Source of the DNA: Bacteroidia bacterium
GTDB taxonomy: Bacteria > Bacteroidota > Bacteroidia > Bacteroidales > Prolixibacteraceae
Assembly: GCA_026391295.1 (NCBI GenBank)
Contig: JAPLDS010000052.1
Coordinates: forward strand, 1-64,000
DNA length: 64,000 nt
Direction: 5' to 3'
This document shows positions 2,197 to 64,000 of the stretch, piece by piece (the first letter of the stretch is position 1; each line of letters opens with the position of its first letter). A program made the translations under genes and the position numbers. The notes under the pieces were generated by a model. The model had not been told where the DNA came from. It did not search any database and saw only the letters and a program-made list of their open reading frames with translations.

Positions 2197-3152
2197 ATAC
2201 TCAATTTATATACCGTACTTCTAATCTCTGCAAGGTTTCCTATGATCACATCATAATCATATTCATACACGCAGTTTTTCGTAAGCATAGCTTTTTTTGT
2301 TGGTGCAATATAGGATGTGGAAGAGCTTAAAGCCTCCCCGTCAATTTTTCCTGATAGTCCAGCATAAAACTTTTCGCACTTCGCATTGTAAATACCCATA
2401 CCCCAAAGATTATCATCAACAAAGGCCATCCAATGTTCAGAGACTGTTGGATACTTACCCCAGAAGCCACTTGCTAGATTGATAACCGTAGGGTTGTCCA
2501 GTTTATCATTTGTAAAAGGGGCTTTGCCCATATAGGCATAGAGATTTTTTAAAGCTGAAATGGGATAGACCGCAGGTAACTCCTGGTCACAAAGAATACT
2601 ATCGCGATAGATTTGATCCGTTCGGTGGCAGGTAATCTTATTGTGCACCCTTAAGATCGACCCTTCCAAGGTTGTCCATTGCTCCATCTCTGCCTCTGCT
2701 GGACGGTTATCCATATCCCAAAGCATTGGAACACATTTCACATATAGCTGATTTCCATTTTTTTTGTAGTCTAGTATCTGGGCTCGATGACGATTGTAGT
2801 CTCCAACTTGAATGGGGTTCCAAGGCCATGGTGACCAAGCTTTAGACTGTCCCTCAGCTTGCCTGTTTAGTCCATTTCCTGCATAATACGATTGCTGAAT
2901 ATATCTCCCTTCGTCTGAAATATTGACAATATTCCGCGTTGAGCCTGTTAACGAGAGATAGGATATGGCACCACCTCTGGTTAAGTCAAGCTTAAGTGTC
3001 AGAATCCCATTGTCGACAACTGCCACGGTATCTTGCATTTTAAATGCGGATGTCTGGCAATATGCTGTTTGCGAGATACTTGCGACTAAGACTAGACAAA
3101 GTTGAATAATCTTATTTATCGACTGTATATTTATACAATGATCTATTTTCAT
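2169..3152 (-). CDS. Unrecognised secreted protein, probably all-beta
   Basis: 327 residues with a hydrophobic N-terminal signal segment (about residues 14-32, ending YCQ). I do not recognise the family. Residues 40-300 read as alternating beta strands rich in aromatic residues (SPWPWNP, GFWGKYP, EHWMAFVDD, LWGMGIYN), as in galactose-mutarotase-like or lyase-associated beta sandwiches; that is inference only. The start overlaps the stop of the upstream DUF4838 gene by ATGA, so the two are probably translationally coupled. The last eight or so residues and the stop codon come from the CACATAG repeat, so the native C-terminus may have been replaced by repeat insertion. It is the last gene of the minus-strand block. 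Confidence 0.75.
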   Translation of the reverse strand: MKIDHCINIQSINKIIQLCLVLVASISQTAYCQTSAFKMQDTVAVVDNGILTLKLDLTRGGAISYLSLTGSTRNIVNISDEGRYIQQSYYAGNGLNRQAEGQSKAWSPWPWNPIQVGDYNRHRAQILDYKKNGNQLYVKCVPMLWDMDNRPAEAEMEQWTTLEGSILRVHNKITCHRTDQIYRDSILCDQELPAVYPISALKNLYAYMGKAPFTNDKLDNPTVINLASGFWGKYPTVSEHWMAFVDDNLWGMGIYNAKCEKFYAGLSGKIDGEALSSSTSYIAPTKKAMLTKNCVYEYDYDVIIGNLAEIRSTVYKLSIKKETHRTQ

Positions 3153-5739: not shown

Positions 5740-8233
5740 TTAAGGTTTTTGTTCTTCAATGGCTCGGTGAAAGGATAACCGATGGGGTTCACCTGATTCG
5801 GAATAGTGTGTGATCTTTTCCCGTTCTGTAATCTTGCAAAATTTGGCATAAGTGCCATCGGCCTTCGCTAAGGCAGGTGTCTGTTTGCATTTTAGATAAA
5901 GAATAGGGACTGAGGCCATCTCAACATGGCGTAGGATCTCCGCATTATCGGCAACCAATTCAGCTTGAGCAAAAATCTCAAGGCAGCTGTGAATAAACGC
6001 ATCGGTGAAATGCTTCTCCTCTGTAGATAAGCAGTGTATATGCACATCTTTGGTTACTAAGCCTTGAAGTTGATCGAAATATTTTCGGATAATTTTGCCC
6101 GATCGACCATAATAGCCACTCATAAAATCATTGATGACAGCATCGGCATTGCAGTCGGGATTCCAAAGTAATTTTGAGATTAGATAAGATCTTAACTCTG
6201 CAAATTCGCCTCCTCTACTTTGGTAGGCAGCTTGCTCCATGATGCCAATGGTATGGTTGTCTCGGAAAGTTTGAATGTTCGGTTGTAAGACTGAAAAGTT
6301 AGGGTATGGCATTTGGTAGTGGTTGAAATTTACCACGTAATCCCAAATGTAAAGATGAGGTGCAAGAGATGACCATCCCTCCAGATCGGCCAAGAAGGTT
6401 TTATTCTCTTTGCAAGATTTAAAATCGTGCGAGAAACAACATTCAATGCTGCAGAATCGAACCACAACATTTTCCTTAGGTTTAATGTTTACTGGCGGTT
6501 TACGCGTATACTGATACGATAGTGTTCCAATATATTTTGTCGGAAATTCTTGTTTAACTGCATCGGCTACCTGATTGACAAACCAGATTAGAATACCTGA
6601 TTCACCACCGTATTGGTTCGCTATATGCAGACAATTATCACATTGACACGGGTTATGCCAGTCGTTTTGCGAAACATCATAAATCAAATATTCGGGGCTC
6701 TCTCGCATCCGTTTTTTGATCCGGTCGATCATCACCGCTAAAACTGCGGAGTTTGAAAGACACAGTTGTGCCTGGTCAGCCACACGTTTTCCTTCTATAT
6801 AACTATAGTATTCTGGATGTTTCGCGAATAGTTCTGCAGGAGGCATCAATTGAAAGAATGTGTGCACATTCCAATAACTCTCCACGCCACCAGGCTGAAC
6901 GCGATATCCCATGGCTCCATTGACCTTATTATGAGCAGCCCAAGTTGGATCGAATGCCTCATAGTAAAAATCATTTCTCACCCTTATCCCTGGACCTTCT
7001 GAATGACTCGTTCTCTAAAAAGCTAAGCACGCCATACATCGTTCCACGTTGCTTTCCTCCAGAAATATAGATGCTCTCTCCAATGTTGCAATAACGATAA
7101 GTTTCGTCAGCCTCTTCAGGGAAAGCAAGATTAGCCTGCTTGGCCATTGTCTCGTTGTATCCAATTACGATCTGAGCTCCACGATACATTGGATCGAAAT
7201 TCTGAATGTCAAAGGTGGCTTTTGAGATCTCTTTTAGCCAATGCTGCAATTCTTTGGCTGCCCACTGTTCTGATTCCGAGGCTTGTGGGTCAACAGATAT
7301 CCGGTAGTTTGTTTTGCCATTTGAGAAGAGCGAATACTCCACTCGTTTGCCAACCGTAAAATGTGTCTGCTGTGAGAATTTCTCGCCAGAGCTTAACTCA
7401 TACGCTATTTTGGCGGTGAAGGGTTTAAATGCACCAGCATCTAATTGAAAACTCTTTAGGTAATCAGTAGTTCTTTTCTCCTCCAAGACAGTCTTTTCTC
7501 TGTCGTTAACAACTGTTAGTTTTAGATTATTAATCAGCTGAGATAGGACTAAGTTCGAAAGTGAAGATCCAAGTCTGGTCTCCCCTTTTTCATTTGATGT
7601 GACTGTGAATAGATCTGCTTTTGCGGTTAGCTGACTTGGCTTAAATGGGAGAAATCTGAAGCAGTATCCCCAAGCATTGCCATGTTGTTCAACTTTTAGG
7701 AGGATTTTATTGATCCCTTTTTTGAGTACAATGGGTATTAGATCTTCATCCGGTAGGACGGGGCGTTTTACTTTATAGTCCCAGACCAATAGATTATTGA
7801 CCCATAATCGACATCCGTCATTGGTCCCCATCGCTACGGTCCACACTTTATCCTCATTGGCAATAACCTCTGTGTAGGCATAGGCGCAAAGCGGCGATTC
7901 ACGGGAGAGAATTTTCCGAAGGTCAACGATTGAATCGGGGGTACTATAGCTAGCCCATTTTAGAGTCTGTTTTTTAAGTTTGACTAAGGCGCCATCCTTC
8001 ACCTTTAAATTGGCTTCTCCTCCTAGGCTATTCAGATAGTCATCGGTAAAGCCTTGGATATGGCCCCATGCTTTGACTGGATCATTCCAAAACTTTAAAG
8101 GTATTGGTCCGCATAATAGCCACGATTTCACCCATTGACCAGCAACAACAGGCTGAGGGGCAAGGGGTGTTGCAAATGCAGTCGATTTTATAGCCAAGGC
8201 TAAAAATACGACTGCGAAAAATGATTTTCCCAT
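5740..8233 (-). pseudogene. DUF4838 paralogue broken by a ~74 bp out-of-frame deletion
   Basis: Two fragments together match the neighbouring 859-residue DUF4838 protein from end to end. Fragment A runs from the ATG at 8233 (signal peptide MGKSFFAVVFLALAI; an upstream ATG at 8266 lies inside a hairpin and adds an unlikely leader) to FLENE, then goes out of frame and stops at 6971. Fragment B resumes in another frame at HSEGPGIRVRNDF and runs to 5740. Compared with the paralogue, about 25 codons (the segment starting LGCRWYTP and ending FDWID) are missing between 7005 and 7006, with one leftover base, hence ~74 bp deleted. The rest of both fragments is well conserved, including SQNDWHNPCQCDNC, so the lesion is recent or an assembly error. 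Confidence 0.85.
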
Positions 8234-8255
8234 AGTCAAAAGTTTAAGGTTTAAA

Positions 8256-8293
8256 CTTAGGCACATAAGTAGTTAGTGTCTTATGTGCCTAAG
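8256..8293. repeat. Perfect 14-bp hairpin resembling the CACATAG repeat
   Basis: CTTAGGCACATAAG at 8256-8269 is exactly mirrored by CTTATGTGCCTAAG at 8280-8293, with a 10-base loop. The arm contains GGCACATAAG, close to the GGCACATAG block of the long arrays, so it may be a solo, reduced copy. It lies between the stop of the 8317-10746 gene and the start of the broken DUF4838 gene. No long T-run follows on the minus strand, so termination is possible but not clear. Confidence 0.75.
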
Positions 8294-8316: not shown

Positions 8317-10746
8317 TTAGTTTTTTATGATCCAGATCTCAGCAACTTGTGATCCTCGTTCGCCTTCGCCTTTATCGTCGTCGCCGCACGACCAAGTAAA
8401 GGTGACTTTCCCATCTTGAGTCACTGCTTTTGGAATTGGGAATTCAAACATTGGCTTAGTTCCCATCCGAATATAATCGTGAATCTTCACTCCGTCGGCA
8501 ACAAGTTTCATTTTAGAACGGAAACGACCAGTATAGGCAATGCGCAGGGTGTAGGTTGCATTTGGATCTAAATTATCATACTCCATTTGTAATGGCGTAT
8601 CGTAAAGTGTGTTGATCTGATTCATCCATGCCAGGGGGGTTGTCTGTCCTTCAAAGCCTTTTGCAACAATCTCATGCACCCAGTCGACACCTGATAATCC
8701 TACCCCGAAACTTACGCGAGGAGACTCTAAACTTCCTGGATCCTCGGCCCAAGTTTTCTTTGCTTTTACACGTTTCCATGCCGATAGTGATCCGAAATTA
8801 TCGTAAAAGCCACCTGGACCAGGATCAGTGCGGTGAAGCATTTTTTCAATCGCAGCAATCTTATCATTCTCTGTACTAATTTTTTCAATCCGCTTTAATT
8901 GATCAAGCATCCATAAGGCATCATTCAAGGGGATGTCGATGTTATCGATAAAATTTCCTCGTCCACTCATCGCATGATGTTTTATGATGGTTAGCTGCGA
9001 TCCAAAGCTCCGAAATAAAGAGTCTGCAAGAGCATAACATCTAGCTTTTAATTCTGGTGAGATTTGCTTCTCATTTGCTAAAGTTAAAGTGGCGCGTGCT
9101 TGAGAGATCGCCTCTTTTGAGCCAAGTTTCTTTGACTGTTCTAGGATGTTTCTGGCTTCGCGTTCAAGTGAGGCTTCATAGATAAGTCTTCGTTGCGTGT
9201 AACCATCAAAATAAGCTCTGATCAATCCACTTTGGAAACGAGGACTACTAAGTACGCTTTGAGGCGCAGTTTTTTCCATGGCTTGCCACTGCTGAAGGGT
9301 CAGCTGTACCTGGTCGTTAGATAATAATGGACCTCTTAGGTTTTTCTCTAATGATAGCAGTCCTTGAGCTACACCTTCCGAGTAGTCGTACCCGACGAAG
9401 AATCGTGCATATTCGCGAAGAGTTTCGAGCACAGGGGTAGACGGATTCCAGTCTTGATCGGTCCACACAAATTTATTCACGTCGTCATTGGTCCCTTCAG
9501 AATAGCTAATACTTCCGCTGGCATAGTTTGCATAGAAGTTATGGATATATTTCTCGTCTTCGGGTCTTGGATTGATGCATTCGCGACCTAAAGTCATGGC
9601 ATAGGCAATATCCCAATTTGGAACAGGGAACTGCGAGCTATAACTATGCGTAATATCAGGATATAAGCGTATCGGAATCGAAGGGTCGATTAATTTTTTT
9701 ACTTCAGGAAGCGGAGTTTTAATCCATGGACCATAAACAACGCCGCCAAACCAGTCATATTTCTTGTTCACATGACCATAAAACTTGCTATACCACTCTT
9801 TGCTCGGCTTGAATACTTGTGGCGACACCCAGATCTTCGCGTTTGGATGATATTTCTTTAAGACTACAGCCTCTTTTTGCAACCAGTTAAATAGGATGTC
9901 TGGTTCAAGGTCGCCTGGATCGCCAGCTGGGACGAATAACGCATCTAGTTTAGGCAGGCTACTAAAGACTTTTTCGCGCTCAGCGATCTCAACTTTTAGG
10001 GAGTCTTGATTGGTGTAATCAGACCCCATATTGGGATACCACATCCATACATCTAAACCATAAGACTGGCAAATGCGTGATTGCTCAACAATCATTTTGC
10101 TAGCCGGATATTTCATGTTTACACTTGTGGCATCGTCATCGGTACGAGGAGGCATAATCTCAATACTATTTACTCCAAAGATGGCAAGATCACGAATATA
10201 ACGGTCGTAATTTGCAATTGTCCAGGCATCATATGCATTGGTTTTTGGACGGTAGCCTAGTTGATGTCCACGTATTGGATATACTGGAGTTGAGGAGATA
10301 TTCAGGTTTTCAGGAATTAAGATCTTACCCTCTCTAAGCTCGATCTTACGTAGCAATTTACCTACACCAAATAGGGTGCCTCGCTCATCGTATCCAGCAA
10401 TGACAACGGTATTTTTATCGATCAATGAAATTTTAAATCCATCCTTGCCAGTTGCAGTAAGTTTATGGATCGCTGCTTTATATTTTGCGTCAAGCTTATC
10501 CATCTTCGATTCAACTCCGACTATGATTGTTGGTGTCGCTGGAGTAGCTTTAGAGATTGTTGGAAGCAAGATCTTGCTTCGTGTCTGAATCTCTTCGGTT
10601 AGGACCTGAACAGCCTTTTGAAGTTGCAGATTTTTTTTCTCAGAAAGCAAAACTTTTGCCTTCGAGAAATCCACGTTCTGGGCAATTCCTATCTGCGAAA
10701 TAAATAGGCAGATCAGGAGTAGTTGATAGAAATTTCTGTAGTTCAT
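8317..10746 (-). CDS. Secreted GH67/GH20-like putative glycoside hydrolase (paralogue 1 of 3)
   Basis: 809 residues with a signal peptide of about 22. Residues 25-165 form an alpha/beta N-terminal domain of the GH67/GH20/GH84 type (LQKAVQVLTEEI, ERGTLFGVGKLLRKIEL). A TIM-barrel-like region follows (YPIRGHQLGYRPKTNAYDAW, IFGVNSIEIMPP, LDALFVPAGDPG near 276, YSEGTNDDVNKFVW). After it come a helical region (about 480-640) and a C-terminal beta domain (NATYTLRIAYTGRF). Two related genes sit at 58791-61133 and 61162-63501. I cannot assign a CAZy family. The strand-4 motif reads GDPG rather than the GDE of GH20, so GH20 chemistry is not supported. The gene is in the minus-strand block, 38 bp after the metallophosphoesterase gene. 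Confidence 0.75.
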   Translation of the reverse strand: MNYRNFYQLLLICLFISQIGIAQNVDFSKAKVLLSEKKNLQLQKAVQVLTEEIQTRSKILLPTISKATPATPTIIVGVESKMDKLDAKYKAAIHKLTATGKDGFKISLIDKNTVVIAGYDERGTLFGVGKLLRKIELREGKILIPENLNISSTPVYPIRGHQLGYRPKTNAYDAWTIANYDRYIRDLAIFGVNSIEIMPPRTDDDATSVNMKYPASKMIVEQSRICQSYGLDVWMWYPNMGSDYTNQDSLKVEIAEREKVFSSLPKLDALFVPAGDPGDLEPDILFNWLQKEAVVLKKYHPNAKIWVSPQVFKPSKEWYSKFYGHVNKKYDWFGGVVYGPWIKTPLPEVKKLIDPSIPIRLYPDITHSYSSQFPVPNWDIAYAMTLGRECINPRPEDEKYIHNFYANYASGSISYSEGTNDDVNKFVWTDQDWNPSTPVLETLREYARFFVGYDYSEGVAQGLLSLEKNLRGPLLSNDQVQLTLQQWQAMEKTAPQSVLSSPRFQSGLIRAYFDGYTQRRLIYEASLEREARNILEQSKKLGSKEAISQARATLTLANEKQISPELKARCYALADSLFRSFGSQLTIIKHHAMSGRGNFIDNIDIPLNDALWMLDQLKRIEKISTENDKIAAIEKMLHRTDPGPGGFYDNFGSLSAWKRVKAKKTWAEDPGSLESPRVSFGVGLSGVDWVHEIVAKGFEGQTTPLAWMNQINTLYDTPLQMEYDNLDPNATYTLRIAYTGRFRSKMKLVADGVKIHDYIRMGTKPMFEFPIPKAVTQDGKVTFTWSCGDDDKGEGERGSQVAEIWIIKN

Positions 10747-37531: not shown

Positions 37532-39778
37532 TTGATGAAAAAAATCGTCGCATTTTTTACCCTAGCTTATTCTCTTTCTAGTTTTGCTGTATTGGCTCAG
37601 CCTGGAAGTGCAGTTAAACCTGTTTTCAAGGATATTCCATTTTCTCAGAACTACAGTATAAAATATAAGCTTAAGGAAGAGGGACTAAAACTTGAAAAAG
37701 TCTTCGCCGATCGAAATGGGGCCATTCAAATTCTTTCATCTGCGGGCTTGTTAAAAACCTATGCTGGTGCATTCTTATATCCCGGAACCCTTGTCCCAGA
37801 TTTGGCCTACCGTCCAATGGGTGATAAGAAAATATCTAATCTTGGTGTGTTGCAAAATCAATTTATCTACTTAGATGATAAGGCTGTTTTAAGTAATGCT
37901 TGGGCTGGAAAATTCTATTCAAAACATGAAACTCCTGAAGCCAAAATCTTTGCTGTCTCTCCAGATTTTACCTCCCTTATTTCTGATGGCACATCATTAA
38001 AACTGGTGCAGGAATCTAAAAATACTTGGTCAGGAAAGCTAACTAATGATAACATTTTAGCGATAAAATATAACTCTGAAAATGGTCTATTTTGGATTTT
38101 AGGGACTAAGTCATTGAGCTCATATTCTTTAAAAGATCAGAAACTAAAATTGGTTTATGAAGGTGTCAATTTTACAGATTTTGACTTGACTGATGCGGGT
38201 AAAAAAGCTGTCATTGGCACATCAAACGGCTTTCTTGAAGTGAATATTCAAACGGGAAAACAGGTCGGTGATGTTTATCGTAAAATTCCTGTTACAGATA
38301 TTACCTGTGTTACCACTATCAATGGGAAAGTATGGTTGGGCACATCGGATGGAGCTTTCATGATTCGCGGCGATGGTAAATATGATTATTACAACGGAGA
38401 ACGTTGGATCATTGGTGATGCGGTCAAACATATTGCAGCTGGACCAGATCACTCGGTGCTTATCCTTACCGATAAAGGTCTTGGACAGATCTGTTTTCAG
38501 CAAATGACCCTGGAAGAGAAAGCATTGTTTTACGAAAAACAAGTCCGTCAACGCCATATCCGAAATGGCTTTAACTCTTCTCTTGAAGGGATGAAAGATG
38601 GAGACATCTCTACTGGACTATTGAAAGATTCAGATAATGATGGTCTATGGACTGCGATGTATTTGGGTGGTCAGATATTCAGATATGCGGCAACGAAGTC
38701 AGACGAAGCACTGCAAAACTGCTACGAATCGTTGGATGCTCTAGAGCGCTTGTATTCTATTAATTCAAATGCTGTTGGATTCCCCGCTCGATCATTTGAG
38801 CGCCGTGGCGATATAAACAGGTTGTCGGATCACGATCGTTGGAGGCACGCTGAGGACCCTGAATGGGATTGGAAAGCAACCACTAGTAGCGATGAGGCAA
38901 TTGGTCATATTTTTGCTTTAGGTGCCATGGCCGAACTTATCAATGTGGAGCCGATGAAATCTCGAGCTATCCACTTAATTGATATTTTAATGCAACATAT
39001 TGTTGACCATAATTATTACTTGATTGACTGGGATGGCAAGCCAACGACATGGGGACGCTGGAATCCTGAATATGTGAATGCACGTCCAGTCATGGTTGGC
39101 GATCGGAAAATCTGCTCTTCGAATATTACTTCGATGTTGCAAACTGCCTACCACTTTACCCATAAAGAGATTTACAAGCAAAAAGCGCTTGAGCTTTTGT
39201 ATAAGAATGGTTATCTCGAGAACCTAATGCGCCCTATGAAATCAATTGGAGAGGCTCCTGCAAATTCAGATGAGTTGAGTAAAGATCTCTCAAATGGTTG
39301 GAATCACTCGGATGATGAGATGTATTTTATTGGCTATTGGGGTCTTTATCGTTATGCGCTAAATGCAGATCTGAAAACGCAGTATAAAGCTTCTATTATT
39401 GACCACTGGGAGATCGAACGGCCGGAGAAAGAGGCCGCTTGGAATATCTTCACCGCATTGGCTAGTAATGAGTTTGACCTAAAGGAATCAGTGTGGTGGC
39501 TTCAACGCTATCCACTTGATATGATTCACTGGTCTATTCAAAATAGTCATCGGAAAGATATTGAAATGGTTGCTCCGAATTTCAGACAGCAAACAATAAC
39601 AGAGGTTTTACCTCCAGACGAACGACCTGTTCATCGCCACAATGGCAACATGTTTAGCTTGGATAATAAACGTAAACGAGGTGATGGAAATGGCGAAGAG
39701 AGTGCTGGCGATATCTGGCTGCTCCCTTATTGGATGGGGAGATACTTGGGCGTTATTAGCGCTCCGGTGAAAAAATAA
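37532..39778 (+). CDS. Exported propeller plus alpha/alpha-toroid protein (family copy 1)
   Basis: 748 residues with a signal peptide (about 1-22, ending VLAQ). Residues ~30-325 have short repeating blades (FADRNGAIQILSSAGLLKTY, NGKVWLGTSDGAFMIRGDGKYDYYNGERWI), like the ligand-binding propellers of hybrid sensors but with no kinase. Residues ~330-748 are helical and look like an (alpha/alpha)6 toroid: DNDGLWTAMYLGG, FPARSFERR, WDWKATTSSDEAIGHIFA (about 448-461), YLIDWDGKPTTWGRWNPE, WNHSDDEMYF, YPLDMIHWSIQNSHRKD and GDIWLLPYWMGRYLG. I know no named family. Conserved acids in an exported toroid suggest a hydrolase or lyase (inference). Four paralogues lie at 39852, 45767, 53498 and 55685. Confidence 0.72.
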   Translation: MMKKIVAFFTLAYSLSSFAVLAQPGSAVKPVFKDIPFSQNYSIKYKLKEEGLKLEKVFADRNGAIQILSSAGLLKTYAGAFLYPGTLVPDLAYRPMGDKKISNLGVLQNQFIYLDDKAVLSNAWAGKFYSKHETPEAKIFAVSPDFTSLISDGTSLKLVQESKNTWSGKLTNDNILAIKYNSENGLFWILGTKSLSSYSLKDQKLKLVYEGVNFTDFDLTDAGKKAVIGTSNGFLEVNIQTGKQVGDVYRKIPVTDITCVTTINGKVWLGTSDGAFMIRGDGKYDYYNGERWIIGDAVKHIAAGPDHSVLILTDKGLGQICFQQMTLEEKALFYEKQVRQRHIRNGFNSSLEGMKDGDISTGLLKDSDNDGLWTAMYLGGQIFRYAATKSDEALQNCYESLDALERLYSINSNAVGFPARSFERRGDINRLSDHDRWRHAEDPEWDWKATTSSDEAIGHIFALGAMAELINVEPMKSRAIHLIDILMQHIVDHNYYLIDWDGKPTTWGRWNPEYVNARPVMVGDRKICSSNITSMLQTAYHFTHKEIYKQKALELLYKNGYLENLMRPMKSIGEAPANSDELSKDLSNGWNHSDDEMYFIGYWGLYRYALNADLKTQYKASIIDHWEIERPEKEAAWNIFTALASNEFDLKESVWWLQRYPLDMIHWSIQNSHRKDIEMVAPNFRQQTITEVLPPDERPVHRHNGNMFSLDNKRKRGDGNGEESAGDIWLLPYWMGRYLGVISAPVKK

Positions 39779-39851: not shown

Positions 39852-41955
39852 ATGAAAAAAGTTACTCTATTGGGTTTTATAGTAGCCCTACTATTTTGTT
39901 CGAAAATCAGTTTTGCTCAGACAACTGAGAAACACCTTGATAAGCCATTTATACAGGATTTTAGCGTTAAATATACACTTGAAGATCAGACTGTAATTTT
40001 AAAAAATGCAGCTGCTGATCACAATGGATATATTCAGATTCTCTCCTCAAAAGGGTTGCTTAGACCACGTAATGGTCAGTTTCTTTTTCCTGGAACGTTA
40101 GTCACAGACCGTCAAGATCGTCCAACATCTGACAAGCATATTTCTAGCATTGCAACATTCCAAGACCAGTTGGTTTATCTTGATGATAAGGCTGTCTTTA
40201 GTAATGCTTGGGCTGGAAAATTATTTGTTAAACATGCTTTGCCAGGTGCTAACATTTTAACTGTTGGCAAGGATTTTGGATTTCTAATCTCAGATGGAAA
40301 AGTTTTAAAACTGATCTCTAATTCTACCGTTGCGTGGGAAGGATCGTTAGCTGGCGAATCTGTAAAAGAGATCAAGTTTGATGCGAAATCTAATCTTTAC
40401 TGGATTTTAGGAGCCGCTTCGATACAGGTTTTCTCTCCAGACAAGAAACAACTTACAAAGGTTATGGATGGAACTACTTTTACTTGCTTAGCACCAGTTG
40501 CAGGAAAGGTTTTCGTAGGAACGAAAGATGGTTATTTAGAGCTAGATGCTAAGACTCAAAAACAACTAGGTGGAATCCATCAAAAAATGCCTTGGACTGA
40601 GATTACCTCTGCAAATGAGGTAAATGGAGAACTTTGGTTTGGGTCTACCTATGGTGCGATGATGCTTCGAGCAGATGGAAAATTTAACTATTTCGCCTCT
40701 AAACGTTGGCTCCCTTCCGACACGATCGTGAGTATCACCAAAGGTCCTGAGCATTCAGTTTTGGTCTTGACAAATGGTGGTATGGCACAGATCTCATTCA
40801 AGTCGATGACTTTGGAAGAGAAGGCGATGTATTACGAAAAACAAGTACGTGACCGTCATATCCGACTCGGTTTTAATGCTACTATTTCGGGTATGACCAA
40901 TGGTGATGTGACCACTGGAAGTCTTGAAAATTCAGATAATGATGGGTTGTGGACAACCATGTATTTAGCTGGAGAGACCTTCCGCTATGCAGTCACTAAA
41001 TCAGACGAGGCGCTTCAGTATGTGCGCGAATCACTTGATGCTATTGAACGTTTATACACCATCAATCCATTGCACAATGGTTTCCCATCACGGTCTTTTG
41101 AAAGAGCGGGATATAACAAGACCAGTGAGCCTTGGCGGGCTACTGAAGATCCTGAATGGGATTGGAAATCAACAACAAGTAGTGATGAAGCCATTGGTCA
41201 TATTTTTGCTTGTGGAGCCATTGCAGAGCTTGTGCCTGATCCAGCATTGAAGAAACAGGCGATTACGATTATTGACACCTTGATGTCGCATGTCGTGACA
41301 AACGATTTCTATATGATCGATTGGAATGGTCAGCCAACATAAGGATGCTGCATTCTTGCTTATGAAAAAGCACGGTTACCTCGAAAACCTGATGCAGCCA
41401 ATGAAAGGAATAGGAATGGCTCCCAAAGATGCTGATGGCCTAAGTCAGAGATTATCGAGCGAATGGAATCACTCCGACGATGAGATGTATTATTGCGGAT
41501 ATTGGGGGCTTTACCGATATGCCCTTAATGATACCCTTAAGGCAAAATATAAAGAGGCAATAATCGATCATTGGGAAATTGAACGACCTGAAAAAGAGGG
41601 GCTTTGGAATATCATGACCGCAATTGCAGGAGCGAAGAAAATTGATTTAAATGAAGCCATTTGGTACCTACAGCGCTATCCTCTTGATATGATTAACTGG
41701 ACTGTTGTAGCGAGTCATCGAAAAGATATCGAGAAGATTGCCCCAAACTTCAGAAATCAAACAATTACAGAAGTCCTTCCTCCCGATGAGCTGCCGCTAT
41801 TTAGACATAACGAGAACCGTTTTAATCTAGAGGGTCATGACAATGGCAGTTCAGAACAAAGCGCAGGCGATATCTGGCTACTCCCTTATTGGATCGGTCG
41901 TTATCTAAATGTGATTGGTGCTCCTGAAAAAGCAGCTGCTGTAGTAAAAAAATAA
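39852..41955 (+). pseudogene. Propeller/toroid paralogue (copy 2) broken by a ~128 bp deletion
   Basis: The first frame (39852-41342) encodes a signal peptide, propeller and half of the toroid up to MIDWNGQPT, then hits TAA. Compared with copy 1, the next ~43 codons (starting TWGRWNPE, ending HKEIY) are absent. The remaining codons follow in another frame, from AAFLLMKKHGYLENLM to the stop at 41955 (WNHSDDEMYY, YPLDMINW, GDIWLLPYWIGRYLN). The junction is near 41338-41340, and about 128 bp are missing. Both parts are otherwise intact and highly similar to copy 1. The downstream part could be read only by internal initiation. Real lesion or assembly error cannot be told apart here. Confidence 0.85.
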
Positions 41956-48553: not shown

Positions 48554-50932
48554 ATGAAAACTTTTCTTTCTCGCTTATTCCTCCTAATTTTTTTGCTGGC
48601 CGCAGGAATTCAATATTCTGCCCAGGCTCAGTCCGATAAAGCGACTGACCATGTCAATCCATTGTTAGGGACCGACTTTTTCGGACATACTTATCCAGGT
48701 GCTGCCTTGCCTTTTGCAATGGTTCATCTCAGTCCAGATATGAATACTCAGGGCTGGACCTACTGCGCTGGATATATCTATTCCGACAACTCCATTATGG
48801 GCTTTAGTCATACCCACTGGAGCGGTGTGGGGATGGTGAATGGGGGCGAAGTCTTGCTAATGCCTAATGTTGGCGATAAGTTGCATACGACACCAGGTGC
48901 TCCTGAGAATCCAGGCGAAGGATATCGTTCGCGCTTTGATCATGCGGATGAAGTGGCTTCTCCGGGGTATTACTCCGTTGTGCTTAAAGATTACAAGGTC
49001 AAGGTTGAGCTAACAGCCACTAAGCGAGCTGGATTTCATCGGTATACTTTCCCAAAAGCTAATAATGCGCGGGTGATCTTAGATTTAGGTCATCAGATAG
49101 GGGAGAATAAATCGGAGCAATTATCTGAGTTGCGAATTATTGAAAATAAACGAATCGAAGGGGTGAAAAGCGCTGGACTAGGAAAAGTTTATTTTGTTGC
49201 TGAGTTTAGTAAGCCATTTGCCTATTATGGAACATTTGATAATGATCTAAAAACACCAGAATCTGGCGGTAGCATCTGGCCATATAAAAATGGGGAAGTG
49301 GGTAAAAATATTGGAGCCTTCGTAAATTTCAAGACTACTGAAAACGAACAGATTTTAGTGAAAGTTGGAATTAGCTATACTAGTCTTGAGGGTGCTCGTA
49401 ACAACCTACATACTGAGATTCCAAATTGCGATTTTGATGGGATCCGTGGCGCTGCGCAAAAAACGTGGGAGAGTGAGCTGTCACGCGTTAAGATTGATGG
49501 TGCAACAGACGATCAAAAGGAGATATTCTATTCCGCACTTTATCACTCTTTGTTAGCTGAATATATTTCGCAAGATGTGGATGGTAAGTATTATGGTTCC
49601 GATAAAAAAATTCATGAGGCAAAAGGGTATGATTTCTATGGCTCATTCTCTTGCTGGGATACCTATCGTTCGCAGCATCCTTTGTTGACCGTTATCGCTC
49701 CCGACCACGTGAATGATATTGTGAAGTCGATCGTTGCCAAGACGAAAGACTACGGCTGGTTGCCTGCTCAGCATTTTATGAATTTATTTGGAGAGACTAT
49801 GGTTGGCGATCATCTTATTCCAATTATTGTAGATGCTTATATCAAAGGTTTCCACGATTTTGATGTTGAATTTATTTATAAAGCGATGCGCACCAAGGCC
49901 TTAGAAGAACCAAAGCCTCCTGTGCCTCATCATGCGGGTCGTTCAGGCTTGAAATATTATATTGAGCTTGGCTACACGCCGGTGGATAAAGTTACGGAGT
50001 CGGTGCCGAATACCTTGGAGCTTGCTTACGACGATTGGTGTATTGCTCAGTTAGCGCAGGCCTTGGGTAAAAAAGAAGACTATGCGTTGTTTATGAAACG
50101 GGCCTCTAACTATCAAAATCTTTGGGAGCCAAAATCAAAGTTTATGCGCCCTAAGCTTACCGATGGAAATTGGTTGGAACCATTAAATGGTCGCGAGCAG
50201 GAGATTGTTAAAGTTGGCGAGCATTCATATTATAAATATTTTGATCCATTGTTGGTTGGAAAACGACCAAGTCGCCACTATACCGAATCAAATGCATGGC
50301 AATATATCTGGTCAGTACAGCATGATGTAAAAGGTTTGATAAATTTATTTGGAGGTAACAAAGCATTTACCGCGAAGCTCGATACCTTCTTTCAGATGAG
50401 TCCGAATATTTCTGCTCCGAAATATGTTGGTGTGGTAGGTACGATTGGTCAATATGTTCATGGCAATCAGCCATCTCATCATGTCTCCTATCTGTATGAT
50501 TTTGCTGGTGAGCCTTGGAAGACACAGAAATGGGCTCGGGAAGTCACTGTTGAGCTATACCGCAGTGGCCCTGGCGGAATTTGTGGTAATGAAGATATGG
50601 GCTCACTTTCGTCGTGGTATGTTTTAAGTGCGATGGGTATTTATCCGGTTACGCCGGGTAGTCCGTATTATGCCATTGGTAGTCCATTGTTTGGCAGCGC
50701 CACTATAAAGGTTGGTAATGGAAAGACCTTTGTGATCGAAACGCATAATAATTCAGCAGAGAATAAATATATCCAGTCGGCGAAACTTAATGGCAAGCCC
50801 TTAAACAAAACATGGCTGTCATACAAAGAAATTACCGACGGTGGAAAAGTCCAATTTGAGATGGGACCAACACCGAATAAAAACTGGGGAAGCAAACCGC
50901 AAGATGCTCCTCCTTCGATGAGTGTACGTTAA
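48554..50932 (+). CDS. GH92-family alpha-mannosidase
   Basis: 792 residues with a signal peptide (about 1-25, ending AQAQ). Hallmark GH92 segments are present: VNPLLGTDFFGHTYPGAALPFAMVHLSPD, GFSHTHWSGVG, FYSALYHSLL, SCWDTYRSQHPL, WLPAQHFMNLFGETMVGDH, NEPSHHVSYLYDFAG-like QPSHHVSYLYDFAGEPW, and GICGNEDMGSLSSWYVLSAMGIYP (about 675-695). GH92 enzymes are calcium-dependent inverting exo-alpha-mannosidases (1,2, 1,3, 1,4 or 1,6, by subgroup). Full length. It is separated from the preceding genes by two repeat elements and ends at a perfect bidirectional terminator, so it is likely a single-gene transcript. Confidence 0.95.
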   Translation: MKTFLSRLFLLIFLLAAGIQYSAQAQSDKATDHVNPLLGTDFFGHTYPGAALPFAMVHLSPDMNTQGWTYCAGYIYSDNSIMGFSHTHWSGVGMVNGGEVLLMPNVGDKLHTTPGAPENPGEGYRSRFDHADEVASPGYYSVVLKDYKVKVELTATKRAGFHRYTFPKANNARVILDLGHQIGENKSEQLSELRIIENKRIEGVKSAGLGKVYFVAEFSKPFAYYGTFDNDLKTPESGGSIWPYKNGEVGKNIGAFVNFKTTENEQILVKVGISYTSLEGARNNLHTEIPNCDFDGIRGAAQKTWESELSRVKIDGATDDQKEIFYSALYHSLLAEYISQDVDGKYYGSDKKIHEAKGYDFYGSFSCWDTYRSQHPLLTVIAPDHVNDIVKSIVAKTKDYGWLPAQHFMNLFGETMVGDHLIPIIVDAYIKGFHDFDVEFIYKAMRTKALEEPKPPVPHHAGRSGLKYYIELGYTPVDKVTESVPNTLELAYDDWCIAQLAQALGKKEDYALFMKRASNYQNLWEPKSKFMRPKLTDGNWLEPLNGREQEIVKVGEHSYYKYFDPLLVGKRPSRHYTESNAWQYIWSVQHDVKGLINLFGGNKAFTAKLDTFFQMSPNISAPKYVGVVGTIGQYVHGNQPSHHVSYLYDFAGEPWKTQKWAREVTVELYRSGPGGICGNEDMGSLSSWYVLSAMGIYPVTPGSPYYAIGSPLFGSATIKVGNGKTFVIETHNNSAENKYIQSAKLNGKPLNKTWLSYKEITDGGKVQFEMGPTPNKNWGSKPQDAPPSMSVR

Positions 50933-57858: not shown

Positions 57859-58730
57859 TTAAGTTCGTTTTATCTCTTGTTCAAGATTGATGATGATTTT
57901 TATCAAGGAGTCAGCTAACTCTTTATGGATTTGGTCGAAAGGAAGTATGGGCTCGCGCACTTGATCTGTTGGATAGATCTGTTGCTGATAAAGCAATCGT
58001 TTAAAGAAGTGGATCGAGATATCGAGGTGTTGATTTGAGAAGGCAAGAACGGGTAAGATCTTTCGAAATAAATCGGTCGCTTCCGCCTCTTTACCTTCCG
58101 TCCAAAGTTTATATATTTTGGCATATATCCAATGCATTCCCGTGGGCATAAACGCGTGAACACCTCTTTTCAAACCCTCAATCATTTGTGTGACTGCCCA
58201 TCCTCCACTGATATTTAATCTCCCCTGCGTAAGGTTTAAGATCCGAGAGTATTTCACCCCAGCAGGTACTGTCTCCACTTTTAGGCATCTGAATGCGGGA
58301 ATCCATCGCTTGTGGCATTCCAATCTTGAAGCATAATCATCTCAAGATCGATCTCTGCCAGTTGCATAAAATGACTTTTAAACTGTTCGTCATTCTGATA
58401 AGGGATCTGAAATAACATATTTCGACAACCTAATTCGGCATAAGCTCGTAGAAGCTTTTTGCTTTTTATAAGATCGGGTTCTCCTGCCCCGGCAATAACA
58501 GGCACTTGGCCATTGACCTCTTGAAGAACCGATTCGACCATTTGTATTCGTTCGGTTTCCGTAAGTTTGGACACTTCGGAAGCCATGGCAGGAACTAGAA
58601 ACCCTGACACCCCAGCATTGATTGCCTCTCTGACATTTAATTTCAATGCCTGAAGATCAACCGAATTATCGGTCTTAAATGGAGTATTTAAAACCGTTAC
58701 AATGCCAAAAAGGGGATAAAGTTCCTTCAT
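57859..58730 (-). pseudogene. DHDPS/N-acetylneuraminate-lyase-family gene broken by a frame-shifting deletion
   Basis: The N-terminal part (58730 to ~58303) reads MKELYPLFGIVTVLNTPFK, GFLVPAMASEVSKLTETER, VIAGAG and MIMLQDWNATSDG, typical of the TIM-barrel class-I lyases. It then loses frame and stops. The C-terminal part (from ~58302 to 57859) continues in another frame with IPAFRCLKVETVPAGVKYS (the Lys in CLKVE would form the Schiff base), RLNISGGWAVTQMIEGL and GMHWIYAKIY. Between them the family normally has a short segment (my estimate 12-18 codons) which is absent, with the frame lost at 58302/58303. The enzyme would cleave or condense a pyruvate-derived sugar acid if repaired. Confidence 0.78.
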
Positions 58731-58742
58731 GAGAAATTGAAC

Positions 58743-58773
58743 AGTCCTGACTGCCTCGAAAGGTGTCAGGACT
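58743..58773 (-). terminator. Possible terminator before the broken lyase gene
   Basis: AGTCCTGAC (58743-58751) pairs perfectly with GTCAGGACT (58765-58773). On the minus strand only a weak T-rich tract follows (TGTTCAATTTC), so it may be an attenuator or processing site between the GH-like gene and the lyase. Confidence 0.5.
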
Positions 58774-58790
58774 ATTTTAATTAGTTAGCT

Positions 58791-61133
58791 TTATTTTTTC
58801 AATAACCAGATATCGCAAATTTTAGATTGATCGCGCCAGTTCATTTTTGATTCCTCTGGAATGTCAAACGTAACTTGAATCTTTCCATCGCTTACATATT
58901 TCGGTGAAAGTTGGAATTCTTTAAATTTCTCTAACTCCTTGCTGTAAACAGTTGGTGAAATACGTTCTCCGTCTACGCGGATTAAGGCATCGCCGTAACC
59001 AGCAATTCGTATGGTATAGTGTCCATTAGGATCAAGATCGGCATAGTCTAACTTTGGAAAGTTTTGATAAAGCTGCGTTGAAAGACGCTTGCGGCTTTTA
59101 CCATCTTCCCACCAAGCTACATCAGTAGCATCTTCGGTGCGGGTTTTTACGCGTGGTCCTTTAGAGATATCTGAGATGTTATCGTAATAACTTCCTGGAC
59201 CTGGATTTTCCCAGGTGCGAATGACATCAAGACGATCAAGCTTCTCCTTTTCAGTGGCCATCTTACTTACCTTCGCAAACTCATCAGTAAGCCACCATCT
59301 GTTGTTTAATGGGTAATCAAGGAAATCAAGGATTGCTCCACGTTCAGACCCGCTGGCGTGGTATTTTGCCACACTAGTCTGCATTCCAATAGACTTGTTT
59401 AAAGCTTCACAGTAATAGACAATCCGTTCTCTTAGAGAAGGCGAGATCTTTTCGTTATCTCCTTTATTTACGACGGCTAAAGCTTCAGTCATGGCTTTTT
59501 CAGACCCAATTTTGGTTGCTGTGCCTAGAATTTGATTTGCCTCTTTCTCAAGCTCTTGCTCATAGACTTTTCTTCTTTTTACATAGGTGTCGTAATATGA
59601 ACGCATCACCAACTGTTGCCAGCGCCAGTTTCCTTTTAGCTCAGGATGTTTCGCTTCGAGATTTTGCCAGAATGCAAAAGTCGTTTCAATACCTCCATTT
59701 TCCTCTACAGGTCCAACCCAGTTGCGCTCCAATGCTAATATCCCATCGGCACCAGCCTCAGCTACTGTAGAGCCGAAAAAGAAACGCGAATATTCGACCA
59801 TAACCTGACGGACATCTTTTTCAGGATTCCAACCCATCTGGCTCCAGGTGACCTTGTTGACATCATCATGAACACCATCAGAATAGGTAAGAAAACCATC
59901 AGTTAAAGGGGCAAAGCGATTGTGAACCTTTGCATAATAATACGGTTGAGGATTGCAAATTTCACGTCCTTCTGTTAGAGCATAAGCCTGATCCCAGTTT
60001 TCAGTAGGGTATTGACAGCGTATGGTATGGGTTACGTCAGGATAATGGCGGTGTTTGTATTGTTTCGGTAACCGGAAACGTGATTCTGCTAAATCCGGAC
60101 TACTTGGGCCATTCGCCACACCAGTAAGCCAGTCGGGTTTATTAGCCTCTAGATATTCATAGAAATAATTTACTTGTTGATCATTAAATCCTTGTAATGA
60201 AATCCACATACCAGCTTTAGGATGAACTTTTTTAAGTTCTGCAGCAATGGCTTTTAGGAAGGGCATAACGAATTTAGGATCGTTGCTACCTGGATCGCCT
60301 CCAGGGAAGAAAATACCATCTAAACGAGCGCAACTTTTATAGAAATTGATATGCTTTTGGACTTCTGCTTTGAAAAGTGCATCATTAGAAAGATCGACAT
60401 CAGCAGGTGTCCATGCCCAATAGTCAAGTCCATAATTGTTACAGATCTCCGACATTTTTGCATTAATCATATCGCGCGGGAAACGCATCACTGGCCCAAG
60501 AGGTCCGTCATGAAAAGGGATATTCTCAATGCTATTGGTACCAAATAGCGCCAGTTCACGGAAGTAAGTCTCAAACTGTGAAGCATCCCATGAATCCCAT
60601 GAATTAGCCGTATTGCGATACCCAATTTGATGACCACGAAGTGGGTAAGCAGGTGAAGTAGCGATTTCAATGTTCTTTGTGACTAGAATCTTGCCTTTTG
60701 TAAGTTCTGCTGTTCTAAGAAATTGACCAATAGCAAATACAACAGCTCTTTCATCAGCACCAATCAACCAAAGTACATCTTGACTACCTGCTTTCCCAAG
60801 CACAAGTCGCAACCCTTCTGGTTTATTCTCCGCTAGGTTGTCGCCTGACCTTTTAGGGACATCTAATCCATTAACTTGAGTATCGCTTGATTTGGCTAAG
60901 ATAATTAAAGAGCTAGCTCCAGACTTTGAAACCAATGGCAATTTAATAGCTGTGTGTTTGGCGACTTCTTCCTGTAAGACGCGAATGGCAGTTTCTCGAA
61001 CCGGCGAGTTTATCCCCGTCGATGCGACAATAGATGCTTTTGATAAATCGATATTTTGCGCAAATACGTTTACTCCAAGGAGCAGAATCGTTGCAGCAAA
61101 TAGCGATCGGATAATAAGAAATTTAGTTTTCAT
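58791..61133 (-). CDS. Secreted GH67/GH20-like putative glycoside hydrolase (paralogue 2 of 3)
   Basis: 780 residues with a signal peptide (about 1-25, ending VFAQ). An N-terminal alpha/beta domain (AIRVLQEEVAKHTAIKLPLV, ERAVVFAIGQFLRTAEL) precedes a barrel: YPLRGHQIGYRNTANSWDSWD, ALFGTNSIENIPF, LDGIFFPGGDPGSNDPKFV (about 278), GMWISLQGFN, YPDVTHTIRCQYPTENWDQAYA and YSDGVHDDVNKVTW (about 421). Then comes a helical region and a C-terminal beta domain (HYTIRIAGYGDALIRVDGERISP). It is a close tandem paralogue of 61162-63501 and more distant from 8317-10746. Catalytic residues are not assignable without a structure; Asp in GGDPG and the Asp pair in HDDVNK are the best candidates. Confidence 0.75.
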   Translation of the reverse strand: MKTKFLIIRSLFAATILLLGVNVFAQNIDLSKASIVASTGINSPVRETAIRVLQEEVAKHTAIKLPLVSKSGASSLIILAKSSDTQVNGLDVPKRSGDNLAENKPEGLRLVLGKAGSQDVLWLIGADERAVVFAIGQFLRTAELTKGKILVTKNIEIATSPAYPLRGHQIGYRNTANSWDSWDASQFETYFRELALFGTNSIENIPFHDGPLGPVMRFPRDMINAKMSEICNNYGLDYWAWTPADVDLSNDALFKAEVQKHINFYKSCARLDGIFFPGGDPGSNDPKFVMPFLKAIAAELKKVHPKAGMWISLQGFNDQQVNYFYEYLEANKPDWLTGVANGPSSPDLAESRFRLPKQYKHRHYPDVTHTIRCQYPTENWDQAYALTEGREICNPQPYYYAKVHNRFAPLTDGFLTYSDGVHDDVNKVTWSQMGWNPEKDVRQVMVEYSRFFFGSTVAEAGADGILALERNWVGPVEENGGIETTFAFWQNLEAKHPELKGNWRWQQLVMRSYYDTYVKRRKVYEQELEKEANQILGTATKIGSEKAMTEALAVVNKGDNEKISPSLRERIVYYCEALNKSIGMQTSVAKYHASGSERGAILDFLDYPLNNRWWLTDEFAKVSKMATEKEKLDRLDVIRTWENPGPGSYYDNISDISKGPRVKTRTEDATDVAWWEDGKSRKRLSTQLYQNFPKLDYADLDPNGHYTIRIAGYGDALIRVDGERISPTVYSKELEKFKEFQLSPKYVSDGKIQVTFDIPEESKMNWRDQSKICDIWLLKK

Positions 61134-61161
61134 GGTTTTGAAATTAGTATTTAGAGTTGAT

Positions 61162-63501
61162 TTATTTTTTGATCAGCCAAACATCGGAGATATGCGAATA
61201 TTTCGACCAGCGAAGATGCGACTCTTCAGGACGGTCGAAAGTTACTCTCATCTTTCCATCTTGGGTTATTGCTCTTGGGATAACAAATGCTTTAAACTCC
61301 CCAATCCCTTTATTGTAAACGGTTGGCTCAAGTCGCTCACCATCTACGCGAATTAGGGCATCGCCTAATCCACTTACCCGGATTATATATTTGCTTGTAA
61401 AATCAAGATCGTTGTATTCTAAGATTGGCTCAATTTGGAATAGCTGAGAAGATAAACGCTCACGCGTATTTCCTCCATTCCACCAGGCCACATCTGTGCC
61501 ATCATAGGAAGTCGTTTTTACATGTGGACTCGACTCAATATTAGAGACATCATCATAAAAACTGCCAGGTCCTGGATTCTCCCAATCTCGAATAATGGTA
61601 AGACGATCTAATTTTTGTGCTTCGTTACTCATGAGCTTAATCTTCTTAAACTCATCGGCAAGCCACCATCTGTTATTGAGGGGATAGTTTACAAATTGCA
61701 GAATACAGCCTCGTTGCGAGTTGGCAGCATGATAGTGCTCAACATCGGTTTGCAAGCCAATGGTTTTGAATAAATCATCACAGTATTTTACAATCTTTTG
61801 ATGGATATCGGTATTGATTGGCTTCGTTTCGGCTTGATTAACTAGTTCCAACGCTAATGACATTGCTTTTTCTGATCCAATCTCAGCTGCTGTTCTTAGA
61901 ATTTTATTGGCTTGTCTTTCAAGTTTCTGCTCATAAATTTTGCGTCTATGCTGATAGGTGTCATAATATGAACGTAAGACGAGCATTTTCCACCTCCAAT
62001 TTGTGAGTAGTTGCGGATTCTCAGACTCTAGTTTCTTCCAGAACTCAAAAGTTGTTTCAATACTTCCGTTTGTGGTAATTGGTCCTGACCAGTCGTGCTC
62101 TAAGGCATTAATTCCATCAGCCCCTTTTTTTGCCAGTGAAGATCCAAAGAAATAACGACAGTAGTCGGTAAGGATCTCGTTGACATCTAATTCGGTGTCC
62201 CACCCTTTCATACTCCAGGTTACTTTGTTCACGTCGTCATGACAGCCGTCTGAATAAGAAACAAATCCGTCAGTTAATTTTGCACTGGCAGCATGGATTT
62301 TGGCATACTGATTCGGTCGTGGATTGATTCCCTCTCGTCCGATCGTTAACATATAAGCCTGATCCCAATTTTGCATCGGATAGTCGCATCTTACATTATG
62401 GGTAATGTCAGGATAGTTGCGGTGCATATATTGCTTGGGTAGACGAAAGCGTGTCTCCGCAATTGGCGGACTGCCTGGGCCAGTAACAACTCCTTTTAGC
62501 CAAGCGGGACTGTTTTTTTCAAGGTATGAATAGAAATAATCAATCTTTTCGGCATTAAATCCTTGCAATGAAATCCATACCCCAGCTCCTGGATGGTATT
62601 TATGCAGTCGATCGTTTAACTTCTGCAAGAAAGGAAGTACATCACGTGGGTGGTTCTCACCTGGATCACCTCCAGGGAAAAATACGTTGTCAAGTTTCGG
62701 ACAGCTTTTGTAAAACGCTTCAGCTCTATTTAATTCTGCTTCTTGTTTTGAGGCAAGCGACAAGTCTGCAGATACAGGTGTCCAAACCCAATAGTCAATC
62801 CCATACAAAGCACATAATTCACTGATTCGAATATTCATCTCTTCAGGAGAGATCGTGAATAATACGCTGTCGTCTCGGTCGCCTAAAGGAATCGTCTCAA
62901 CGGCATTGGTGCCAAAAACGACTAAGTCACGAATGTATTGTTCGTATTTTTTTACGTCCCATGCATCGTATGAATTGGCATGATTGCGGTAACCTAATTG
63001 ATGACCCCGAATAGGCTGCATGGGTGAAGTTGCAAAGTCAAGAGGTTCCTCTAAATTGATTTTATGATTTGTCATCGTGGCGGTGCGCAATAACTTGCCA
63101 ATCCCAAATAGGACACCACGGGTGTCAGCACCGATGATCCAAACAATCGTTTTGTCTTTACTTTTCTCACTGACAATCCGATATCCCTCGCTTTTATCTT
63201 CGGGTAGATTGGTGCCAGCTCTTTTGGGCACTTTTACCCCATCGAGATTTTCATCTTTTGAGATGGCCAAGGCGATAATGGTTGACTTGTCCCAATGCTT
63301 TGAGAGTGGAAATGTTATTGAAGTTCTCTTTGCAACCTCTTCCTGCAATACCCGAATAGCCGTCTCCTTAACAGGGGAAACTAGTGACGGTGAAGCTAGT
63401 ATGGTTGACTTCGACAGGTCGATTGGTTGTCCAAATAGCAGTGCATGACTCGATAGCAGAAAGCTTACGATCAGCGCTTTAAAAAGATATGTCTTTTTCA
63501 T
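61162..63501 (-). CDS. Secreted GH67/GH20-like putative glycoside hydrolase (paralogue 3 of 3)
   Basis: 779 residues with a signal peptide (about 1-25, ending LLFGQ). Colinear with the 58791-61133 protein: IRVLQEEVAKRTSITFPLS, RGVLFGIGKLLRTATM, QPIRGHQLGYRNHANSYDAWD, LDNVFFPGGDPGENHPRDV (about 278), GVWISLQGFN, YPDITHNVRCDYPMQNWDQAYM, YSDGCHDDVNKVTW and GDALIRVDGERLEPTVY. The pair shares motif after motif and the gap between them is 28 bp, so a tandem duplication is likely. The start ATG overlaps the stop of the ceramidase-like gene as ATGA, so translation is probably coupled. Specificity unknown. Confidence 0.75.
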   Translation of the reverse strand: MKKTYLFKALIVSFLLSSHALLFGQPIDLSKSTILASPSLVSPVKETAIRVLQEEVAKRTSITFPLSKHWDKSTIIALAISKDENLDGVKVPKRAGTNLPEDKSEGYRIVSEKSKDKTIVWIIGADTRGVLFGIGKLLRTATMTNHKINLEEPLDFATSPMQPIRGHQLGYRNHANSYDAWDVKKYEQYIRDLVVFGTNAVETIPLGDRDDSVLFTISPEEMNIRISELCALYGIDYWVWTPVSADLSLASKQEAELNRAEAFYKSCPKLDNVFFPGGDPGENHPRDVLPFLQKLNDRLHKYHPGAGVWISLQGFNAEKIDYFYSYLEKNSPAWLKGVVTGPGSPPIAETRFRLPKQYMHRNYPDITHNVRCDYPMQNWDQAYMLTIGREGINPRPNQYAKIHAASAKLTDGFVSYSDGCHDDVNKVTWSMKGWDTELDVNEILTDYCRYFFGSSLAKKGADGINALEHDWSGPITTNGSIETTFEFWKKLESENPQLLTNWRWKMLVLRSYYDTYQHRRKIYEQKLERQANKILRTAAEIGSEKAMSLALELVNQAETKPINTDIHQKIVKYCDDLFKTIGLQTDVEHYHAANSQRGCILQFVNYPLNNRWWLADEFKKIKLMSNEAQKLDRLTIIRDWENPGPGSFYDDVSNIESSPHVKTTSYDGTDVAWWNGGNTRERLSSQLFQIEPILEYNDLDFTSKYIIRVSGLGDALIRVDGERLEPTVYNKGIGEFKAFVIPRAITQDGKMRVTFDRPEESHLRWSKYSHISDVWLIKK

Positions 63502-64000
63502 TTGTGATTTATTAATGGCATGGCTGTCCTTATCATTCCTTCTGCGATAACATCTCCAAGGTCTGGTCCGTAAAAGCTAACACTAGACTCATAACCTTCA
63601 CCATAAAGATATTGTTCGCGACTGAGGATATAACTAATCCATTCGTTGGCTAGACCCCCGATGGCTACATATTTTGATCCGTTTGCTCGTAATGCTTTTT
63701 TTACCCGCTGTCCTAAAACAGCAGTCATCTCACCCGGTGCACCAGCTATCACTAGATCGCCGATCCTTATGGCACCAATGCCAACCTCCTTGGGTCCTAA
63801 TACATCCATCACCACTTTGACCGTTTGAGCATTAAGTCCATATTCTTCCCCTCCAGTTTTCATGAATGAGGGGTGAGCTGCATGTTGAGGTAATTTGGAG
63901 GTTGTATAACTAGATTTGAATTGCTGAACTTTATTTGGGGTGATCGTTTGATACAATCCAAATGCTTTTTCAGCAATGATTTTTCCGTAGATCTCAATTT
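63498..64000 (-). CDS. Neutral/alkaline ceramidase-like protein, C-terminal part (cut by window end)
   Basis: Only the last ~167 codons are inside the window. The reading frame stays open to 64000 (EIYGKIIAEKAFG), so the TTG-started 152-residue ORF at 63956 is not a real start. SFMKTGGEEYGLNAQTVKVV, EVGIGAIRIGDLVIAGAPGEMTAVLGQRVK, NEWISYILSREQYLYGEGYES and YGPDLGDVI match the C-terminal half of the neutral ceramidase N-terminal-domain family. Family members hydrolyse ceramide or, in glycan loci, act on unknown esters or amides. Translation is probably coupled to the GH-like gene that follows (ATGA overlap). The N-terminus and catalytic serine region are outside the window. Confidence 0.8.
   Translation of the reverse strand, partial: IEIYGKIIAEKAFGLYQTITPNKVQQFKSSYTTSKLPQHAAHPSFMKTGGEEYGLNAQTVKVVMDVLGPKEVGIGAIRIGDLVIAGAPGEMTAVLGQRVKKALRANGSKYVAIGGLANEWISYILSREQYLYGEGYESSVSFYGPDLGDVIAEGMIRTAMPLINHK

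Follow-up and report, generated by a model that had tools for sequence, protein, structure and literature searches.

Three proteins encoded in one 64,000 nt stretch of a Bacteroidia (Prolixibacteraceae) genome, hereafter the window, belong to an unnamed family within the known GH67/GH115/GH84/GH20 structural group; the family is new with respect to Pfam, NCBIfam and the PDB, may bear an existing CAZy number, and is not a new kind of system. Its members probably are secreted, periplasmic TIM-barrel glycoside hydrolases. The family is often found in carbohydrate-use gene clusters yet lacks a Pfam, NCBIfam or PDB assignment, and a function for it would be a function for hundreds of hypothetical proteins. 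It also bears on how the GH20/GH67 scaffold works with a proline at the acid position.

The window corresponds to contig C40 in a genome of 2.93 Mb that is 97% complete, and all three genes lie on the reverse strand. As proposed in a preliminary description, members 1 (58791..61133, 780 aa) and 2 (61162..63501, 779 aa) form a tandem pair with 55% identity, accompanied by a distant paralogue, member 3 (8317..10746, 809 aa), that is 33% identical to the pair. Member 1 begins with a Sec-type signal peptide (residues 1-25, assigned by eye), followed in the AlphaFold model by a GH67N/GH20b-like N-domain, a TIM barrel (~160-430) and C-terminal helical and beta parts. Three motifs line the barrel of member 1, all given on the reverse strand: FPGGDPG at the end of strand 4 (60288..60308, residues 276-282), YPDVTH after strand 7 (60027..60044, residues 364-369) and YSDGVHDDVNK at and after strand 8 (59853..59885, residues 417-427). 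Their counterparts are FPGGDPG (62659..62679), YPDITH (62398..62415) and YSDGCHDDVNK (62224..62256) in member 2, and VPAGDPG (9913..9933, with A for the first G), YPDITH (9646..9663) and YSEGTNDDVNK (9472..9504, with E for D and N for H) in member 3. The three copies had been said to agree in the GGDPG and HDDVNK motifs; since the third differs from the pair in both, the agreement is limited to a shared core of GDPG and DDVNK, each of which was confined to the three copies among the 34 window proteins checked.

We assessed residue conservation in a 67-sequence alignment, using member 1 numbering. P277, G279, D280, P281 and G282 of the strand-4 motif and Y417, S418, G420, D423, N426 and K427 of the strand-8 motif are invariant (67/67), while G278 is kept in 64 and D424 in 65 of the 67 members; position 419 is D in 58 and E in nine, and position 422 is H in 52, N in 13 and T in two. 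Further invariant residues are R166, H168, Q169, R173, E203, W239, W241, Q314, R362, Y364, D366, H369 and R390-E391. A divergent subgroup (L180-L182) shares the motif core, as do the Asticcacaulis homologue WP_338736565.1 and those of Granulicella. A scan of environmental genomes turned up at least 252 loci with relatives, of which 78 were retained for analysis, from Bacteroidota, Acidobacteriota, Hydrogenedentota, Planctomycetota, Verrucomicrobiota, Omnitrophota and Nitrospirota. Plasmid records, in which the named relatives are annotated as hypothetical protein, extend the family to Alphaproteobacteria and Granulicella. The nearest named relatives are from Prolixibacteraceae and other uncultured Bacteroidia, and occurrence is patchy, with the family present in 34 of 140 genomes of its own taxonomic family and in three of 396 drawn across the phylum. 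Given this invariance, which in 67 homologues spans at least seven phyla, the motifs are a family feature, as had been supposed, rather than a product of decay. Pseudogene formation was likewise ruled out for the three copies themselves, which are all full length and conserved.

In the tree, each window copy sits in a line of its own; the three lines are well supported and old, which excludes a recent duplication. Member 2 thus has its own orthologue line, and orthologues of both pair members are neighbours in five other loci (L042, L043, L070, L071 and L077). By these sequence comparisons, the tandem arose through an old duplication.

The AlphaFold model (pLDDT 93.4, pTM 0.91) has a GH67/GH20-type N-domain, then a TIM barrel, then helical and beta C-terminal parts. 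Barrel strands 1-4 were read as residues 165-169, 201-204, 237-241 and 273-277, and strands 5-8 as 308-312, 336-341, 360-363 and 413-417, such that GGDPG ends strand 4 and YSDGxHDDVNK ends strand 8. Foldseek ranked GH115 first against the PDB (E 1e-19), followed by GH67 (3e-15), GH84 (1e-12), GH20 (2e-12) and GH89 (4e-11), although with TM scores of only 0.34-0.49 and a high overall RMSD even for the best folds, the match is to the class and not to one family. Eighteen of the 38 invariant D/E/H/K/R/N/Q/Y/W residues are at the C-terminal ends of strands, which make up 104 of the 780 positions (P 2e-7 over the whole protein, 0.003 within the barrel); in the model, this is the pattern expected for a working active site. 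We also considered that the family, within its superfamily, might lack hydrolytic activity or any catalysis and act, for example, as a lyase or a glycan-binding protein. The missing canonical strand-4 acid would be in keeping with such a role, and the genome encodes related families of this fold that are uncharacterised too. However, loss of catalysis normally relaxes residues of this kind, and here 38 polar or aromatic residues, concentrated at the barrel mouth, are invariant over at least seven phyla, making this an improbable explanation.

No Pfam model (all three copies searched) or NCBIfam model (copies 1 and 2 searched) reached its cut-off for the window copies, so that, within these two libraries, the HMM search named as a refuting check of the preliminary description did not refute it. 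The nearest model was the GH67 N-terminus (PF03648, cut-off 24.3), which gave 17.1 bits for copy 2, 23.1 bits for copy 3 and no match for copy 1. While phmmer with copy 1 against the PDB returned nothing useful, the family profile matched NagJ (GH84) and GH67 alpha-glucuronidase, in each case in the N-domain. The GH67/GH20-like accessory domain and barrel described initially were recovered by the profile search, by hhalign to GH67, GH20, GH84 and GH115, and by AlphaFold with Foldseek. The related N-domain, the TIM barrel and the conserved strand C-termini place the family in the GH67/GH115/GH84/GH20 structural group. GH163 is a DUF4838-linked family; a search of the literature on DUF4838, GH163 and new GH67/GH115/GH84-like families turned up no description of the family reported here.

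The resemblance to GH67 (PF03648/PF07488) lies in the N-terminal domain and the order of the barrel. The GH67 entries of the PDB matched by the family profile were 1k9d and 1mqp, and hhalign to the GH67 profile aligned the N-domain through to strand 5 (pairwise E 5e-10), breaking down beyond it; the C-terminal region differs, and the GH67 middle domain (PF07488) had no match in the window copies or their own genome (G000). The glutamate of SEGQPGP after strand 4 is the GH67 catalytic acid. As hhalign sets GGDP over ANSE, this glutamate is opposite P281. When the barrel alone was compared with GH67 and GH115 by hhalign, strands 6-8 did not align reliably, so we claim no residue equivalence there, including for the GH67 strand 6/7 bases. 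GH115 xylan alpha-1,2-glucuronidases (PF15979) were the best Foldseek matches (4c91, 4c90 and 7pug, E 1e-19 to 2e-17, at TM 0.39-0.49 and RMSD 15-18 A over full length), and their N-domain is alignable by hhalign. PF15979 had no match in the window copies or their genome, and the GH115 catalytic residues were not identified in the family; a loop Asp has been proposed as catalytic in GH115 (Asp332 of BoAgu115A, Asp303 of wtsAgu115A; PMC3879575, PMC9063842).

The likeness to GH20 beta-N-acetylhexosaminidases (PF00728, PF02838) is centred on the GGD of strand 4, where the E of the GH20 DE pair is replaced by P in all 67 members, as the preliminary description had anticipated in placing GGDPG there in lieu of GGDE. 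The GH20b-type N-domain scored above cut-off in L083, L108 and the family part of L103 and below it in the window copies. The family also occurs fused to GH20: a GH20 catalytic domain precedes the family domain in three Bryobacterales proteins (L093 and L103 by Pfam, L105 by eye). These fusions, the GH20b matches in L083 and L108 and the alignment of GGD-P with GGD-E raise the alternative of an exo- or endo-acting beta-N-acetylhexosaminidase with substrate-assisted catalysis, in which D280 would position the acetamido group and D366, E391 or H369 would be the acid/base. We consider this rather unlikely, given that proline invariably takes the place of the acid/base partner, for which the sequence offers no assignable substitute, that the GH20 catalytic model PF00728 was unmatched in the window copies, and that hhalign to GH20 was meaningful for the N-domain only. 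The family resembles GH84 O-GlcNAcases (PF07555) in the N-domain, with a profile match to NagJ at E 1.5e-6 alongside the Foldseek match, but lacks the GH84 DD pair: the GH84 alignment has another register at strand 4, with P277 opposite the first D, and no second carboxylate is kept. PF07555 was unmatched in the window copies and their genome. The Pfam model of GH89, to which the likeness is the Foldseek match, was not matched by the family either.

Because the second carboxylate is a proline, the chemistry of GH20 and GH84, which uses the strand-4 DE or DD pair, cannot run unchanged, and the proline in place of an essential acid probably means a different arrangement of catalytic residues; a GH67/GH115-like inverting arrangement would be the likeliest alternative. 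Clues to which residues these might be come from two sister families encoded in this genome. One, an 884 aa protein (L005, 82-2733 of contig C65) with the Cys-rich strand-4 loop GGDGGGCECDRC, matched the family at E 4e-58 over 723 columns and keeps D280 (in GGDGGGCECDRC), an acid at 366 (NEITH) and D423/N426. The other, a 599 aa protein (L007, 232-2028 of contig C51) with the Cys-rich strand-4 loop PYDQGGCGCDQC, matched at E 4e-30; in it, strand 7 is followed by an acid (FPEIS), and YSEGIFEDLNK is present. Its strand 4 is PYDQGGC, in a register that is not fixed relative to D280. Since the acids are retained in the 884 aa sister, and in the 599 aa sister after strand 7, D280 and D366 are the likeliest catalytic carboxylates, a best guess drawn from sequence comparison. 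Sugar would be bound at the barrel's C-terminal mouth, with D280 (strand 4) as general acid or substrate-positioning carboxylate, D366 (strand 7) as the second catalytic carboxylate, and E203, D423, H168, H369 and W239/W241 as putative sugar binders. That the family is a glycosidase we regard as likely. The chances that D280 and D366 are both essential appear about even, and those of a glycosidase with the D280/D366 layout, its substrate left open, a little short of even.

Neither sister family has a characterised member, and phmmer of the sister proteins against the PDB gave nothing useful, with only weak GH20 matches for the 599 aa protein. At its strand-8 motif, the 884 aa sister matches the final part of the DUF4838 model (PF16126); in contrast, the GGDPG family has no PF16126 match and no Cys-rich strand-4 loop of the kind seen in these proteins. 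DUF4838 proteins also adjoin copy 3 in the window.

Gene neighbourhoods provide clues to the substrate, though neighbour sets vary greatly among lineages. The pair is flanked directly downstream by an aldolase of the DHDPS/N-acetylneuraminate-lyase family (57859..58784, reverse strand); a DHDPS-family aldolase is in this position in four Bacteroidota loci, the window and a Solibacter locus (L111). An HpcH/HpaI-type aldolase neighbours the family in 17 of the 78 loci, with HpaI, 2-keto-3-deoxy-L-rhamnonate and GarL aldolases as its best NCBIfam models, all below cut-off. Acid sugars fit these adjacent aldolases better than hexosamines do, which would suit an inverting, GH67/GH115-like alpha-uronidase whose released sugar acid is processed by the neighbouring 2-keto-3-deoxy-acid-type aldolases. 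The alpha-glucuronidase families GH115 and GH67 are among the best fold and profile neighbours, and the invariant Arg and His at strand ends (R166, R173, R362, H168 and H369) agree with such an activity. We nevertheless find it doubtful: the GH67 acid is Pro in this family, a single lineage, the Aquirufa/Spirosoma-like Cytophagales, accounts for most of the 17 aldolase loci, a xylan-degrading gene set was not recognised beside the family, and the GH20 fusions and N-glycan-type clusters are at odds with it.

Other associations lead back to the D280/D366 glycosidase and suggest a different substrate for it. A GH2 gene with an exo-glucosaminidase Ig domain is directly upstream of the family gene in Proteiniphilum, and GH2 genes of the same cluster adjoin family genes in Tannerellaceae, Cyclobacteriaceae and Acidobacteriota loci. 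On a plasmid of Asticcacaulis sp. DW145 (L201, 775-19418), the family gene is part of a GH2-GH3-beta-galactosidase-GH125-GH92-family-GH29-GntR-GH84-like cluster, and the order in Granulicella is GH29-family-GH20-TonB. Plant N-glycan use in Bacteroides has an associated set of GH92, GH3, GH29 and GH2 (PMC9522356), and the alpha-1,6-mannosidase family GH125 is employed on N-glycans (PMC10154615). A GH92-type mannosidase is encoded near the pair (48554..50932, forward strand), and three to four GH92 genes surround family members in the G036 and G040 loci. Of 63 family genes, 11 have one of the listed GH92 genes no more than 15 kb away, where a simple model of random positions would give 1.8. This enrichment is overstated, since carbohydrate genes tend to cluster and several of the family genes counted lie beside one another; GH92 genes also are numerous, at 6-29 per genome in the same taxonomic family. 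The GH20 fusions, the GH2 exo-glucosaminidase neighbours and the Asticcacaulis cluster point, with some uncertainty, to GlcNAc-containing, N-glycan-like oligosaccharides. In this scheme, GlcNAc/GlcN-containing oligosaccharides such as N-glycan fragments would be degraded alongside GH92, GH2, GH3, GH20 and GH29 enzymes. We put forward a GlcNAc/N-glycan-type substrate tentatively, as the likeliest substrate class but one that falls clearly short of an even chance; the fuller proposal, an undescribed layout of strand-4 Asp-Pro and strand-7 Asp acting on a GlcNAc linkage of N-glycan-like oligosaccharides in at least seven phyla, is more speculative still and, taken as a whole, unlikely.

Additional neighbours were recorded. 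Directly upstream of the pair, a neutral ceramidase-like protein is represented by its C-terminal part (63498..63998, reverse strand), and a neighbour of this kind is also upstream in L070, L071, L074, L076 and L077. An M55 D-aminopeptidase domain follows the family domain in two near-identical proteins from Omnitrophota MAGs (L083 and L097). An HGSNAT/NagX-type acetyltransferase was a strong match only in L078 (307 bits, below the cut-off of 480), and YdjC, sulfatases and alkaline phosphatase were other neighbours. Two recurring neighbour families (~527 aa, L043 1138-2721; ~443 aa, L055 10314-11642) had no Pfam match. Several related propeller plus alpha/alpha proteins are encoded near the pair (37532-57838), and the two scanned had little Pfam content beyond Reg_prop.

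Three genes in the window appear to be split. The aldolase at 57859-58784 extends over two frames, its orthologues in L070 (~96% DNA identity) and L071 being in one. A propeller plus alpha/alpha protein is encoded in two overlapping frames (39852-41342 and 41326-41955, forward strand), near a 748 aa paralogue at 37532-39778, and a DUF4838 protein apparently occupies two frames (5740-6981 and 6971-8266, reverse strand) beside a full-length neighbour (3149-5728). Three such genes in one window suggest either assembly indels or real decay.
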